From NCBI GenBank assembly GCA_002238505.1, contig MPMM01000007.1, forward strand, positions 1 through 64,000: a DNA stretch of 64,000 bases, read 5' to 3'. The position numbers and the translations under genes were made by a program. The DNA is from SAR202 cluster bacterium bin22. Its GTDB lineage: Bacteria; Chloroflexota; Dehalococcoidia; Lucifugimonadales; UBA3495. Below, piece by piece: positions 470 through 35,187 of this stretch; positions within the stretch are counted from its first letter, which is position 1, and the number at the start of each line of letters is the position of its first letter. A model generated the notes under the pieces. The model did no database searches. It worked only from the letters and a program-made list of their open reading frames with translations, and was not told the origin of the DNA.

Positions 470-3016
470 GTGCACGAAGACGGGACACGGACTTTCGACA
501 TTTCCCTGCCCATAAAGGGCATGACCTGCGCCGCCTGCGTGATGCATGTGGAGCATGCCCTGCAGGAGACGCCAGGCGTTCTGGCGGCTACCGTCAACCT
601 GGCCACCGAGCGGGCCACAGTCTCCCTGCAACCAGGGGAGTTGCCTTTGGACCAGTTGCGGCATTCAGTGGCCGACGCCGGATACGAGATCGACTCCACC
701 GAAACTACCCTTACCGTGGGGGGGATGACCTGCACGGCCTGCGTCAGCCACGTCGAGCATGCCCTGCGGTCGGTGAACGGCGTTTTGGACGCCTCGGTTA
801 ACCTGGCCACCGAGCGGGCATGGGTCAGCTATGTGCCCGGCGTGGTGGGCGTCCCCGAATTTCGCGAGTCCCTGGAGGACAGCGGTTACCGCCTGGACGG
901 GGTGGAGGGCGATGCTCGGGACAACGCGGCGGAACTGGAGAGGCTGGCCCGTACCGAGGAGATAAGATACTTCCGCAACCGGTGCGCCTTTGCGGTGACC
1001 GCCGGCGTTATTCTCTTGCTGGGATCAATGCACGCGCTGCCCTGGGTAGATTTCCTGAACGGCCTGCGACTGGGCAACTGGGCGGTTTGGCCCTGGGTGT
1101 TGTGGCTCCTGGCCACGCCGGTCCAGTTTTGGGCCGGGTGGCCTTTCTATACTTCGGGAATTCCCGCCCTGCGACACGGAACCGCAAACATGCATACGCT
1201 GGTGGCCCTGGGGTCCACGGTGGCCTATGGATACAGCGCCGGCATTACCCTTATTTTCGCCTTCGCCCCGGCGTGGCTGGCAGAGCGGGGCATCGGCAGC
1301 GGAGTTTATTTCGATACGGCGGCGCTGATTATCGGGTTAATTCTGCTGGGGCGGTTCCTGGAGTCCCGAGCGCGGGGCCGGACCTCGGAGGCTATCCGCC
1401 GCCTGATCGGGTTGCAGCCCAATACGGCCACGGTGGTGCGGGATGGGTCCGAAGTCCTGATTCCGGTGGATGAACTCACCATGGACGATATCGTGGCGGT
1501 TCGGCCCGGGGAGCGGGTGCCCACCGATGGCGAAGTGGTTGAAGGCGCTTCCACGGTGGACGAGTCCATGCTTACGGGAGAGAGCATGCCGGTGGAGAAG
1601 GCGCTGGGTCAGCCCGTCTATGGCGCGACCCTGAACCGTACCGGTTACTTCCGTTTCCGGGTCACGAAGCTGGGCCAGGAGACGGCGCTTTCCCAGATTA
1701 TTCGCCTGGTGGAAGAGGCCCAGGGTTCCAGGGCGCCGATCCAGCGGCTGGCGGACCGGGTTGCCTCGGTCTTCGTGCCCGTGGTGGGCGCCGTGGCGGT
1801 GGCGGCCTTTCTTTTCTGGCTGGTCCTGGGCCCGGCGCCAGCGCTGTCTTACGCCGTGCTGACGCTGGTGGCGGTGCTGATTATCGCCTGCCCCTGCGCG
1901 CTGGGCCTGGCCACGCCCACGGCCATTATCGTTGGTACGGGCAAGGGCGCGGAAAGGGGCATCCTCATTCGCAGCGCCCAGACCCTGGAGACCGCCCACC
2001 GGGTGGACACGGTGGTGCTGGACAAGACCGGAACCCTGACCCAGGGCAGGCCCGTGGTGACAGACCTGATTCCAGACACGGGGGATGGAGCTTTGCCTGA
2101 GGCGGAACTCCTGCGGCTGGCCGGGGGCCTGGAACATGGTTCCGAGCACCCGCTGGCCCTCGCCATTACGGAGGAAACGGCGCGGCGCGGCATTGTCCCG
2201 GCGGAGGTATCCGATTTTGAGGCCCTGCCCGGGCAGGGGGTGTCGGGGAAATCCGGTGAAGGCCAACTGTTGCTGGGCAGCCCCTCCTTCATGGTGGGAC
2301 AGGGTATATCCCTGGGCAATCTTTCCCCTGAGCTGGAGCGGCTGTCCACGGAAGGCAAGACGCCGGTAGTCCTTGCCGTCAATGGAGCGGCCCGGGGGGC
2401 TATCGGGCTGGCGGACACTCCCAAGGACGATGCCAGGTCCTCGGTGGCCCAATTGCGGGAACTGGGGCTGGAGGTAGTAATGCTGACGGGCGACAACCGG
2501 CAGACAGCCCTCCACGTGGCCGGCAGCCTGGGCATTTCGCGGGTGGAGGCGGAGACACTGCCCCACGAGAAGGTGGAAGTCGTCCGGCGGCTGCAGGCAG
2601 AGGGCAGGTCGGTGGCCATGGTGGGCGACGGCATCAACGACGCGCCAGCCCTGGTTCAGGCCGACGTGGGCCTGGCCATGGGGGCCGGCGCCGATGTGGC
2701 CATGGAGTCGGCGGATATCACCCTTATGGGCAACGACGTGGGCAGCGTCATCACCGCCCTGCGCCTGAGCCGCCAGACCATGCGGGCAATCAAGCAGAAC
2801 CTGTTCTGGGCCTTCTTCTATAACGTGCTGCTGATTCCGGTGGCGGCGGGGATTCTGTACCCCGTGTTCGCGGCGCTGGGGGGCGTTCCAATCAGTCTGG
2901 AGTTCTTCTTCGGAGACCAGGGATTCCTCAACCCCGTGCTGGCGGCCCTGGCAATGGCCTTCAGTTCAGTAACGGTGGTCAGCAACTCACTGCGGTTGAG
3001 GAAGGCCGGGGTGTAA
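470..3016 (+). CDS. copA: Cu+ exporting P1B-type ATPase (CopA)
   Basis: This is an 848-residue inner-membrane pump that exports monovalent copper using ATP. Two N-terminal heavy-metal-associated domains carry GMTCAAC (Cys20/Cys23) and GMTCTAC (Cys88/Cys91). They are followed by eight expected membrane segments. The actuator TGES is near residue 366, the transmembrane metal motif CPC at 474-476, the phosphorylated DKTGTLT at about 518, SEHPLA (the HP site of the nucleotide domain), and GDGINDAP near 720. The last helices contain [12 protein letters not shown] and [12 protein letters not shown], the pattern of Cu+ (IB-1) rather than Zn or Cd pumps. The start is GTG with a weak ribosome site. 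No chaperone or regulator gene is adjacent. Family assignment is certain and Cu specificity very likely. Confidence 0.95.
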
Positions 3017-3107
3017 GCGGCGGGCAGTCAGGGGCAGTTCAAGGACGGCCCAATTCCCGGGGCAAACTGGTTCCGTGTTCGGATTTTGAGGGCTGGTGGC
3101 GGGGCAT

Positions 3108-3241
3108 CAGGGTCTTTCGATTGTCGGTGGCAACTCCTCGAGTCCGTTCGTGGTGAGCTTGGAGAACCACTCCGGGCGGCCCTTCGACAGGCTCAGGGCG
3201 AACGGTGGAAGAGACTCTACCAAAATAATAGAAAGACCCTG
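3108..3241. mobile_element. MITE-A copy 1, with 10-bp target duplication
   Basis: A 134-bp element bounded by inverted repeats CAGGGTCTTTCGATTGT and, on the other strand, CAGGGTCTTTCTATTAT. It is flanked by a perfect direct repeat GGCGGGGCAT (3098-3107 and 3242-3251). It carries no ORF that looks real. The inside holds a second inverted pair, CCGTTCG.GGTGAGC against GCTCAGGGCGAACGG. Sister copies are at 27056-27189 and 34953-35087. The right target duplication ends on the first base of the stop codon of the minus-strand gene at 3251. Confidence 0.8.
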
Positions 3242-3250
3242 GGCGGGGCA

Positions 3251-3454
3251 TTACCCCTGCGCAGCTTCCCTTCTCTTGTTCAGGAACAGTATCAGCCAGA
3301 TGAGGTTGCCCACGAACAGGGCGCCGGAGATGAACCAGAGGGCCGTTCCCGCCGCAGGATTCAATGCCAGCCCGACCCCCAGACCCACATAGAAGATGAC
3401 CACGGCCAACAGGGCCAGCACGACGTGGATAGCGATCCTTAGTCCGGTCTTCAT
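3251..3454 (-). CDS. Small two-helix membrane protein, unknown
   Basis: A 67-residue product beginning MKTGLRIAIHVVLALLAVV. I chose the ATG at 3454 because GGGGAA lies just before it and because the longer reading frame upstream has no membrane or family character. Two hydrophobic stretches (about residues 7-28 and 38-60) and a positively charged C-terminus (NKRREAAQG) fit a small inner-membrane protein with a cytosolic tail. It lies about 80 bp downstream of secA in the same direction and might share its transcript. No family was recognised and no function is proposed. Confidence 0.6.
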   Translation of the reverse strand: MKTGLRIAIHVVLALLAVVIFYVGLGVGLALNPAAGTALWFISGALFVGNLIWLILFLNKRREAAQG

Positions 3455-26396: not shown

Positions 26397-27005
26397 TTGA
26401 GCCTGCCCTTTGCTTTTTTCCATATCAAGGCGGGTCTCCTTGCGCTGGCTTTGGCAATAGCGCTGGCGGCAGCCATGGGAGTGGGTACGTCCCATGCCCA
26501 GGCCCCCGAGGGTGGCTACGATGAAGAGGTGGCCCAGGCTATAGACCAGATGCTCATGTGCCCGGTCTGCCCCGCCGAGTCCATTGACCAGGCCCAGGTG
26601 CCCCTGGCGCGACAAATGCGGCAGCGGGTGCGGGAGCTGCTGGCCGAAGGAGCCACGCGCCAGGAGGTTCTGGACTACTTCGCCGACCGGTACGGCCAGA
26701 ACGTACTGGCCTCTCCGCCCAAGTCGGGGATTAACCTGCTGGCCTGGATATTGCCCATTGCAGGTCTTCTGGCCGCACTGGGGGTTGCCCTGCTGGTACT
26801 GCGGGCCATGCAGGGCAGGCAGGAAGCTACCGGTGAAGAGGCCGGGCCCGCTTCAACAGGGGAGGAGGAACTTGAACCCTACCTGGCTGCGGTTGACCGT
26901 TCGCTTGACCTGGAGCGGACTCCGGACGCATTGGATGGGGAGGACGCTGCTGGCAGGCAGGATGCGCGTGATGATGAGGAGCCACAGGGGAGCAGAGGGG
27001 AATAG
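26397..27005 (+). CDS. CcmH/CycL-like cytochrome c maturation protein
   Basis: A CcmH-family protein of about 200 residues. After a signal segment (FFHIKAGLLALALAIALAAA... HAQA) comes LMCPVCPAESIDQAQVPLAR, the CxxC thiol motif that reduces apocytochrome cysteines. Next are RELLAEGATRQEVLDYFADR and YGQNVLASPP, then one membrane helix (LLAWILPIAGLLAALGVALLV) and an acidic tail. The family consensus LRCxxCQNQSI is changed to LMCPVCPAESI. The start is uncertain: TTG 26397 gives a tidy signal peptide, while GTG 26361 or 26325 are alternatives. Its place after actE fits heme attachment for ActA and ActE. Confidence 0.82.
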   Translation: MSLPFAFFHIKAGLLALALAIALAAAMGVGTSHAQAPEGGYDEEVAQAIDQMLMCPVCPAESIDQAQVPLARQMRQRVRELLAEGATRQEVLDYFADRYGQNVLASPPKSGINLLAWILPIAGLLAALGVALLVLRAMQGRQEATGEEAGPASTGEEELEPYLAAVDRSLDLERTPDALDGEDAAGRQDARDDEEPQGSRGE

Positions 27006-27353
27006 ACTGTCCCTTATATGTAGGCTCAGGCAGGTGGGCTGGTTGCGGCAAAATCCAGGGTCTTTCGATTGTCGGTTGCACCTCCTCGAGTCCGTTCGTC
27101 GTGAGCATGGAGAACCGATCCGGGCGGCCCTTCGACAGGCTCAGGGCGAACGGTGGAAGAGACTCTACCAAAATAATCGAAAGACCCTGGGCGGAGTCTC
27201 CCCGGTTGAAAAGAGGCCATAGCATCATTACAGTGTAGCCAACCCACGGGAATTGCCCTGGGGTAAGGTTCCGGGAACCGGTGGGAGAATGAATCGGGAA
27301 TACAACACTTTGCCTGGCGGGGCAGCATTTGTTTCCTTTGCCGGAGGTATGCC
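27006..27353. other. Intergenic region holding a MITE-A copy
   Basis: About 350 bp between the CcmH-like gene and lhgO. It contains MITE-A copy 2 and, close to 27344, the GGAGGT ribosome site of lhgO. No gene is seen. Confidence 0.6.
27056..27189. mobile_element. MITE-A copy 2
   Basis: 134 bp, the same length and ends as the copy at 3108 (CAGGGTCTTTCGATTG and CAATAATCGAAAGACCCTG-like termini), with differences inside. No target duplication is visible: left flank CGGCAAAATC, right flank GGCGGAGTCT. It is therefore older, or one side has been rearranged. Confidence 0.75.
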
Positions 27354-28574
27354 ATGAATTCCAGGGAATACGACGTAGTTATCATCGGGGGCGGGATTAT
27401 CGGGCTCTCAACGGCCATGCAGTTGGTCCAGAGGTTTGCTGACGGTCTCAAGGTTGCGGTGGTGGAAAAGGAAAAGGACCTGGCTACCCACCAGACCGGA
27501 CATAACAGCGGCGTGATTCACTCGGGCATCTACTACCGGCCTGGGTCGCAGAAGGCCCAGTTCTGTGTCGGCGGCGCGCTTTCCCTCAAGCAGTTCTGCG
27601 ATGAGAACGAGATCGAGTACGACCTGTGCGGCAAGACCATCGTTGCCACCGAGGAAGCGGAACTCCCCAGACTGGAGAACCTGTACGAACGAGGCGTGGC
27701 CAACGGCGTGCCCGGCCTGGAGATGATCGGCCCCGAACGCCTGAAGGAGATTGAACCCCATACCTTCGGGCTGCAGGCTCTGTGGTCCCCGGCCACGGGC
27801 ATTATTGACTACGTCAAGGTCAGTGAAGCTTACGCTTCCAGGTTCCAGGCGCGCGGCGGGGACATTTACATGGATGCGGCAGTCAGATCCATCGGCGGAG
27901 CATCGGGGGCGATGACCATTGATACCAGTCGGGGAACTCTGCATGCGTCGCACGTAATTAACTGCGCCGGCCTGTACGCGGACCGGATCGCTGAGATGAT
28001 GGGAGAGCGTACCAACGTGCGCATCATACCCTTTCGCGGCGAGTACTATACGCTGCGGCCCGAGAGCCAGTACCTGGTCAAGGGCTTGATTTACCCGGTT
28101 CCGGACCCCCGGTTCCCATTCCTGGGAGTCCACTACACTCGCAACATCCACGGCTACGTGGAAGCGGGGCCCAATGCTGTGCTGGCCTTTGCGCGGGAGG
28201 GCTACCGCAAGAGCAACGTGGATGTGGCCGAATCCCTGGGCACCTTTACCTACCCCGGGTTCTGGAAGATGACCGCCAAGCACTGGCGCACTGGCGTGTC
28301 GGAAATGCACCGCTCTTACAGCAAGGGGGTATTTGTCCACGACCTGCAGAAGCTGATTCCGGAAATTAAGGACGAAGACCTGGCCCCGGGCGGCGCGGGT
28401 GTCCGCGCCCAGGCTGTGGCCACCGACGGCGCCCTGCTGGACGACTTTTCCATCCTGCAGGGAAGGCAGGCTATCCACGTCCTCAATGCGCCGTCCCCCG
28501 GCGCCACCTCGTCATTGTCCATTGGGGCCCACATCGTCAACCTGGCAGTGGAGAGTTTCGGGCTGGAGGAGTAG
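27354..28574 (+). CDS. lhgO: L-2-hydroxyglutarate oxidase / dehydrogenase (LhgO)
   Basis: A 406-residue FAD-dependent oxidase of the DAO family that converts L-2-hydroxyglutarate to 2-oxoglutarate, probably feeding electrons to the quinone pool. It begins DVVIIGGGIIGLSTAMQL (dinucleotide-binding motif), then EKEKDLATHQTGHNSGVIHS, a family signature, and GIYYRPGSQKAQFC. The tail has GGAGVRAQAV and HVLNAPSPGATSSLSIG. ATG 27354 has GGAGGT 7 bp upstream. It stands alone between the complex III cluster and two unknown genes, and metabolic coupling to complex III through quinol is plausible. Confidence 0.93.
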   Translation: MNSREYDVVIIGGGIIGLSTAMQLVQRFADGLKVAVVEKEKDLATHQTGHNSGVIHSGIYYRPGSQKAQFCVGGALSLKQFCDENEIEYDLCGKTIVATEEAELPRLENLYERGVANGVPGLEMIGPERLKEIEPHTFGLQALWSPATGIIDYVKVSEAYASRFQARGGDIYMDAAVRSIGGASGAMTIDTSRGTLHASHVINCAGLYADRIAEMMGERTNVRIIPFRGEYYTLRPESQYLVKGLIYPVPDPRFPFLGVHYTRNIHGYVEAGPNAVLAFAREGYRKSNVDVAESLGTFTYPGFWKMTAKHWRTGVSEMHRSYSKGVFVHDLQKLIPEIKDEDLAPGGAGVRAQAVATDGALLDDFSILQGRQAIHVLNAPSPGATSSLSIGAHIVNLAVESFGLEE

Positions 28575-33844: not shown

Positions 33845-34599
33845 TGGCGGCGGCCCGCCTGGAAGAGCAGGTTGCCCTGGTAACGGGAGCATCGCGGGGA
33901 ATAGGAGCGGTAATTGCCCAGCGCCTGGCCAGGGATGGGGCCAGGGTGGCGGTGAATTACCAGGCTTCCGCAGAAGCGGCCCGGCAGGTGGTGGAAACCA
34001 TAGCGCAGTCCGGGGGCGAGGCCGCGATGATGGCCGGAGACATATCCAACGAGGGGGAAGCCGAAGGCCTGGTCAAACAGGTGATGGACGAGTGGGGCCG
34101 TATCGACATCCTGGTGAATAATGCGGGCATTACCCGCGACCGCCTGCTGCTGCGCATGACCTCGGATGACTGGGACCGGGTGATGGAAGTCAACCTGCGA
34201 GGGGCTTTCCTCTGCACCAAGTACGTTATGCCTCACCTGATCCGCCGCCGGCAGGGACGGGTGGTCAACATTTCTTCGGTGGTAGGTCTGGGCGGCAACC
34301 CGGGCCAGGCCAACTATGCCGCATCCAAGGCTGGTCTTATTGGTTTCACCAAGGCGGTAGCCCGCGAAGTGGCATCAAGGAACATCACGGTCAACGCCCT
34401 GGCCCCGGGGTTTATCGACACCGGCGGCATGGTGGACCAGATGACCGAGGAGGCCAAGAAGACCGTGCTGGGCCGCATACCCATGGAACGGTTCGGCAGC
34501 GCCGACGATGTGGCCGAGGCGGTATCGTTTTTGTGTGGGTCCGGAGCGGGCTACATTACCGGCCAGGTTTTAACCATTGATGGCGGGATGGTTGGGTAG
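33844..34599 (+). CDS. fabG: 3-oxoacyl-ACP reductase FabG
   Basis: A 251-residue short-chain dehydrogenase that reduces 3-oxoacyl-ACP with NADPH. The cofactor motif is TGASRGIGAVIAQRLA, then NNAGITRDRLLLRM, which is typical of FabG, the catalytic Ser in NISSVVGLGGNPGQ, and YAASKAGLIGFTKA with Tyr and Lys. The tail GYITGQVLTIDGGMVG is also characteristic. ATG overlaps the plsX stop. Its place in a hydratase-plsX-fabG operon supports a role in fatty-acid synthesis rather than secondary metabolism. Confidence 0.93.
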   Translation: MAAARLEEQVALVTGASRGIGAVIAQRLARDGARVAVNYQASAEAARQVVETIAQSGGEAAMMAGDISNEGEAEGLVKQVMDEWGRIDILVNNAGITRDRLLLRMTSDDWDRVMEVNLRGAFLCTKYVMPHLIRRRQGRVVNISSVVGLGGNPGQANYAASKAGLIGFTKAVAREVASRNITVNALAPGFIDTGGMVDQMTEEAKKTVLGRIPMERFGSADDVAEAVSFLCGSGAGYITGQVLTIDGGMVG

Positions 34600-35187
34600 G
34601 GCTGGCCGTCGGCTGTAGGGTTTCAGGGGCCGCTTTTTTGCGCAGCACGCGCGCGGATAGTCCCCCGTACAGATGGGTAAGGTTCTATCAGTAGAGACTT
34701 CCTGCTCAAGGACGTCCTCCAGTTTGCGCCAGGACATGCGAATTGGAAGGCCGTCTGCATTTAATCCCACCAGTCGCCCTGCCTCTTTTCGACTGTTCTC
34801 CCGACTTGTCTCCTCATAAGCTTCGCCAATAGGGAATGTGGGGCACCGGAGATACATACACCATTCTCCCTGTCCCGTTCCTCATCGTGTCGCCGGCGTT
34901 CGAGTTCAGGATGTGAATCCAGCCTGTTAGTCGTATTCTCAAGCTGTGCGGCCAGGGTCTTTCGATAGTCGGTGGCAACTCCTCGGGTCCGTTCGCGGTG
35001 AGCTTGGAGAACCATTCCGGGCGGCCCTTCGACGGGCTCAGGGCGAACGGTGGAAGAGACCCCATTAAGATAATCGAAAGACTCTGGCTGTGCGGCACGG
35101 TCTCGTTTATGCCTGCCCGGTTTTCGTCTATACTTGCTGGAACGTGTTAAATCCCCGGGCCAGGCGATGGCCAGCAAGGAGCGACCC
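34600..35187. other. Intergenic region with MITE-A copy 3 and a possible gene remnant
   Basis: About 590 bp. On the minus strand a frame from ATG 34857 has a normal-looking stretch (GEAYEETSRENSRKEAGRLV, then SWRKLEDVLEQEV), but it then runs into the antisense of fabG. Just upstream in another frame is LDSHPELERRRHDEERDREN. These may be pieces of a decayed gene near the MITE. No homologue was recognised, so I do not call a CDS. Confidence 0.35.
34953..35087. mobile_element. MITE-A copy 3, with 10-bp target duplication
   Basis: 135 bp with ends CAGGGTCTTTCGATAGT and ATCGAAAGACTCTG, flanked by a perfect direct repeat GCTGTGCGGC (34943-34952 and 35088-35097). It shares the interior of the copies at 3108 and 27056. 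Confidence 0.8.

Follow-up and report, generated by a model that had tools for sequence, protein, structure and literature searches.

The questions raised by this locus are whether a 134-bp repeat that carries no gene is a transposable element and, if so, which enzyme moves it. Three copies, termed MITE-A, lie on the plus strand of the window, the whole stretch of 64,000 nucleotides that was analysed, which is part of a MAG of a marine SAR202-type Dehalococcoidia (Chloroflexota; 4.39 Mb in 58 contigs, 97% complete). Copy 1 (3108..3241) has terminal inverted repeats CAGGGTCTTTCGATT.../...AATAGAAAGACCCTG and is bounded by exact 10-bp target duplications that can be read from the sequence, GGCGGGGCAT at 3098..3107 and again at 3242..3251. 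Copy 3 (34953..35086) lies between exact 10-bp duplications of GCTGTGCGGC (34943..34952 and 35087..35096), and copy 2 (27056..27189) is without a target duplication. A preliminary description of this DNA had reported three copies of nearly equal length with shared ends, two of them between perfect and different 10-bp repeats. The repeats at copies 1 and 3 are as it reported, and the copies are in fact all exactly 134 bp; its positions for copies 1 and 2 are correct, but it placed the end of copy 3 one base too far, at 35087 rather than 35086. The ends are conserved but not identical, as the 14-bp right ends of copy 1 (ATAGAAAGACCCTG) and copy 3 (ATCGAAAGACTCTG) have one mismatch each.

By ORF position all three window copies are intergenic, with neighbouring genes named here from their translations alone. 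Upstream of copy 1 a gene for a copper-type P-ATPase ends at 3016, and on its other side are the ends of a small ORF and of secA, on the opposite strand. Copy 2 is positioned between a CcmH-like ORF (ending at 27005) and an oxidoreductase ORF (starting at 27354), and copy 3 between a fabG-like ORF (ending at 34599) and a lyase-like ORF (starting at 35134). An Rfam search of the window gave no match, a promoter and terminator scan at copy 1 found none, and the sole match in a plasmid search with the element was a 39-bp interior piece on one Sphingobium plasmid. A clean empty site for copy 1 was looked for in genomes G002 and G003, which lack the element there, and none was obtained; the left junction could not be aligned because about 0.7 kb of other DNA lies between the flanking genes (G003:C43, locus L203, approximately 780-1480, and likewise in G002, judging by spacing). 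In G003, this DNA may be a toxin-antitoxin-like gene pair, as judged by eye.

Evidence for mobility comes from the rest of the genome, where the 134-bp element has 44 BLAST matches, mostly full length and with 91-99% identity, and where the 13-bp end, allowing at most one mismatch, occurs at 103 sites versus 6 for a reversed control. To count as stand-alone, an element had to measure 115-200 bp and to show no more than three mismatches at each end (n=41), and chance was estimated from mis-pairings, in which the left and right flanks came from different elements. The 9-10 bp flanks are at least 80% identical in 25 of the 41 elements, compared to 0.2 expected (0.43% of mis-pairings), and form a perfect duplication in 9 of 41, compared to 0.08 expected (0.18%). 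Duplications at this frequency, as opposed to about 0.4% by chance, show that the element transposes and generates target duplications of 9-10 bp, bearing out the earlier view that this is transposition rather than a static repeat. Good duplications are absent from 16 of the 41 stand-alone elements. The 31 elements of exactly 134 bp diverge from their own consensus by a mean of 4.9%, indicating a burst that is not very recent and for which decayed duplications are to be expected. A direct sign of two insertions is found at C53:499258-499534, where two elements 9 bp apart share a target that was reused, in the arrangement GCCATGCCCT-element-CCATGCCCT-element-GCCATGCCCT. Target preference is weak, with C at position 10 (0.51 bits) and G or C at position 1 (0.37 bits) of 37 duplications. 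Short length (134 bp), 15-bp inverted ends, the absence of a transposase gene, dispersal in multiple copies (the 44 matches) and the target duplications are together the features of a MITE; ends held in common with an autonomous IS in the same genome are usual for this class, and are not required for it. In another genome, G133, locus L099 contains two neighbouring elements that differ but have related ends (1236-1490 and 1501-1668), the first with a perfect duplication, CTGGGAGCAT, that the second apparently re-used as its target.

An element without a transposase must be moved in trans, as the preliminary description had argued, and this agrees with the absence of such a gene from the element and with the occurrence of the same 15-bp ends on an ISAs1 element of a relative. 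Within the window's genome, no ISAs1 transposase was detected by family profile, nor by a search with a same-genus ISAs1 protein at E values up to 10, and the copies are therefore probably fossils of past activity, unless the partner was left unassembled. Across the order, the exact 15-mer CAGGGTCTTTCGATT is present in 29 of 250 genomes, with none for the reversed control. In G026, a 1225-bp element is bounded on both sides by exact ends that face each other, and the ISAs1 transposase that it encodes, in two frames, scores 107.9 and 79.5 bits against NF033564 (cut-off 70) and 76.9 bits against PF13808. This copy, which is frame-broken and without a clear duplication, places the identical terminal repeat on an ISAs1-encoding element; candidate ISAs1 partners were found only in related genomes, and among them no intact element with exactly these ends. 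In G092 and G237, ISAs1 coding remnants are found about 100-125 bp away from an exact end.

Two ISAs1 types of the same bacterial family as the window's genome have well-defined ends and 10-bp duplications. One, at locus L181 in the same-genus genome G003, is a 1273-bp element with ends CAGGGTCTTTTCATT on both sides, differing at 2 of 15 bases from the MITE ends, and a perfect 10-bp duplication, GCTCTTACAC. The other is represented by four copies in G034 (one contig) with ends CAGGGCAATCGCGTC, and with the ends set at CAGGG a 10-bp duplication is seen at each of them. For the ISAs1 family, duplication length is given as 8-10 bp, a range that includes the 9-10 bp of the MITEs as well as the 10 bp observed in G003 and G034. 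ISAs1 genes are present in 33 of the 250 genomes of the order, and in 18 of the 29 that bear the exact end versus 15 of the other 221 (Fisher p 1e-11, uncorrected for shared ancestry).

Reading ends and frames in these transposase genes calls for some care. End-like matches inside ISAs1 genes (CAGGGTCTTGCCATC) were rejected as ends, being the antisense of DGKTL-motif codons; at L147, L149, L168 and L188 the antisense of these codons, CAGGGTCTTGCC, comes near to the terminal repeat and misleads end searches within the genes. The transposase of the L181 element is split (1748-2389 and 1183-1728, minus strand), and its two parts could be joined only by a shift of +1 or -2 close to a T4C5 run; this may be simple decay. 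A distant ISAs1 relative at L195 (G013:C6:15500-18600), the one read of four places in G013 with equal ISAs1 profile score, encodes its transposase in two ORFs with a 4-base overlap at about 1668-1685, and has an A7 run directly ahead of the stop of the first ORF (GAAAAAAAGCGGGGGTGA), a possible -1 frameshift site.

The same ends enclose more than one kind of DNA. A second type of element, about 155 bp long but found at 170, 178 and 191 bp as well, has only its ends in common with MITE-A, and its interior is a different palindrome that contains CCCTAACCCTCTCCC; several of these elements have duplications, one of them perfect (GCCCAACGAC). Composites of about 556-863 bp have CACGGTCTTTCGATTGTAT, or a variant, at their start and at their end a MITE-A that is complete except in one case, where it is shortened. 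Perfect 10-bp duplications surround three of these units as a whole (CCCTACGTAC, GGGGCAAGTG and GGAAAAGGAA), and since the MITE inside has no duplication of its own, the composite moved as a whole. No gene was recognised in the composite, where open stretches reach about 110 codons at most. In other genomes, whose interiors were sampled only at exact-end matches, these ends bound yet more unrelated fold-backs, with perfect duplications in several cases (L106, L110, L114, L122 and L137). In six foldings, copy 1 on both strands and four elements from other genomes, all pair nearly end to end, with z-scores of -5.1 to -10.0. Neither the driver family nor the second interior type, the composites or the end-to-end folding of whole elements had been part of the preliminary description.

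The palindromes themselves have a wider distribution than the ends. Searches of relatives with the 134-bp element mostly match only positions 37-98 or thereabouts, a REPIN-like inverted doublet of 62 bp without transposon ends (3144..3205, plus strand, in copy 1, as delimited by the relatives' matches and the fold), which argues that the repeat spreads or persists on its own as well. The earlier suggestion that the interior repeat spreads as part of such elements is accordingly right for 39 of the 90 genomic copies of the exact half-site GCTCAGGGCGAAC, which lie inside them, but does not account for the interior-only matches that predominate in relatives; the remaining half-sites are scattered or in tandem arrays. 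For the second type, the 17-mer CACCCTAACCCTCTCCC occurs four times in the window's genome, always within ISAs1-ended elements, so that, judged by this exact 17-mer, it is present there solely as cargo. Elsewhere it is present in 73 copies in G001 (same genus), 141 in G026, 30 in G059 and 28 in G054, and as it is abundant even in the last two, both of which lack the exact 15-bp end, these palindromes have an existence of their own and travel as cargo. A separate observation concerns L214 (G000:C45:3700-4600), where a 44-bp tandem array of the REP-like interior, in 5.8 copies (260-514), follows a single element-like end, as if the interior of an element had expanded; a matching second end was looked for there and not found. 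Similar arrays are located at C33:1-400 and C19:74488-74763. Pattern matches were also obtained in named genomes, namely Chloroflexi bacterium SB0662_bin_28, SAR202 cluster bacterium bin90 and two Dehalococcoidia MAGs. Since contig VXOH01000114.1 and G001:C37 have the element in common, flanks included, the window's genus probably includes SB0662_bin_28.

Other accounts of these elements have to be weighed against a driver of the ISAs1 family. Some IS4-type elements also make duplications of 9-12 bp, and the genome has 17 DDE_Tnp_1 (PF01609) matches, among which another DDE family with CAGGG-type ends, for instance of IS4 type, might be sought as the driver. However, none of these 17 loci has CAGGGTCTTTCGATT-like flanking inverted ends with a duplication within 1.5 kb, whereas such ends are found on the ISAs1 elements of relatives, and a driver from among them is improbable. 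The possibility that copies are static repeats spread by recombination or gene conversion, with duplications arising by chance, could draw on the 16 elements without a good duplication, but it is refuted by the excess of duplications over the chance expectation and is at odds with their position around whole composites rather than the inner MITE; we regard it as almost certainly wrong.

A further alternative starts from the interior. A REPIN is an inverted doublet of a short palindrome, and the 62-bp interior is just such a doublet of a widespread palindrome that occurs alone in relatives, which would fit a REPIN or REP-type unit moved by a RAYT (Y1 transposase), with the ends as flanking sequence carried along. 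However, no Y1_Tnp gene was found in the window's genome or in 58 of the 59 genomes searched, the exception being a partial match in another genus, and a RAYT as driver of the interior was rejected on this ground. Furthermore, these elements have target duplications, which Y1 enzymes are not known to make, and their ends also enclose unrelated interiors. Movement as a REPIN is thus very improbable, and MITE-A, while it resembles REPINs in its interior, differs in that no RAYT was found and in that the doublet sits inside a DDE-type MITE.

Comparison with known systems places MITE-A closest to the ISAs1 family (NF033564, PF13808/PF01609), with which it shares ends starting with CAGGG and 10-bp target duplications; unlike its relatives of about 1.2-1.3 kb, which encode the transposase, the 134-bp element has none, and no ISAs1 gene was found in its genome. 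None of the papers searched was found to describe ISAs1-driven MITEs in this lineage. The Chunjie MITE of Geobacter uraniireducens is intergenic, with conserved ends, duplications, varying size and dozens of copies (PMC10969869), and on this description it resembles MITE-A. QMITE2 of Coxiella burnetii is a 150-190 bp MITE with unique duplications of 7-11 bp and a REP palindrome inside, with short REP-only forms elsewhere, the REP being of the GTAG type and a target of IS1111 (PMC5896051). MITE-A is similar in its duplications, internal REP palindrome and separate REP-only forms, but its end type fronts several unrelated palindromes. TIMEs and TIME-COMP composites, which are Tn3-derived, resemble MITE-A and its composites in that they are gene-less, with conserved ends and variable cores, and are mobilised in trans and can mobilise intervening DNA (PMC4133298). 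They have the 38-bp ends and 5-bp duplications of the Tn3 family, in contrast to the ISAs1-type ends and 9-10 bp duplications of MITE-A.

Taken together, it is highly likely that the 134-bp element is a MITE whose ends are recognised and inserted in trans by an ISAs1-family DDE transposase, with duplication of 9-10 bp of target. Judging from the anatomy of the relatives' elements, it is an ISAs1 transposase that would have moved the copies in the window's genome. Such an enzyme would recognise the CAGGGTCTTTCGATT terminal inverted repeats and make a staggered cut at the target, leaving the 9-10 bp duplication. Because the transposase would need the ends alone, the interior would be exchangeable; in this genome one end type carries three cargoes, the REPIN-like palindrome of the 134-bp element, the unrelated palindrome of the 155-191 bp elements and the composites, which use a MITE-A as one end. 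We also raise, as a speculation with a rather small chance of being right, that existing intergenic palindromes have been captured again and again by ISAs1-type ends, in SAR202 as in other Dehalococcoidia, and that one transposase type would thus spread many unrelated REP-like families within and between genomes. On this view, folding back from end to end would serve a function (it might bring the ends together or shield neighbouring transcription) that the element needs, and would be neither an accident nor a mere reflection of how common palindromes are between genes.

The element is of an ordinary kind, an IS-derived MITE, and is unusual for the range of its interchangeable palindromic interiors. 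The analysis names a probable enzyme family for an abundant small transposon of an uncultured bacterial lineage, and shows a route by which common intergenic palindromes can travel as cargo. How REP-like repeats pass between genomes is an old question, and one that can now be tested by ordinary comparative genomics.
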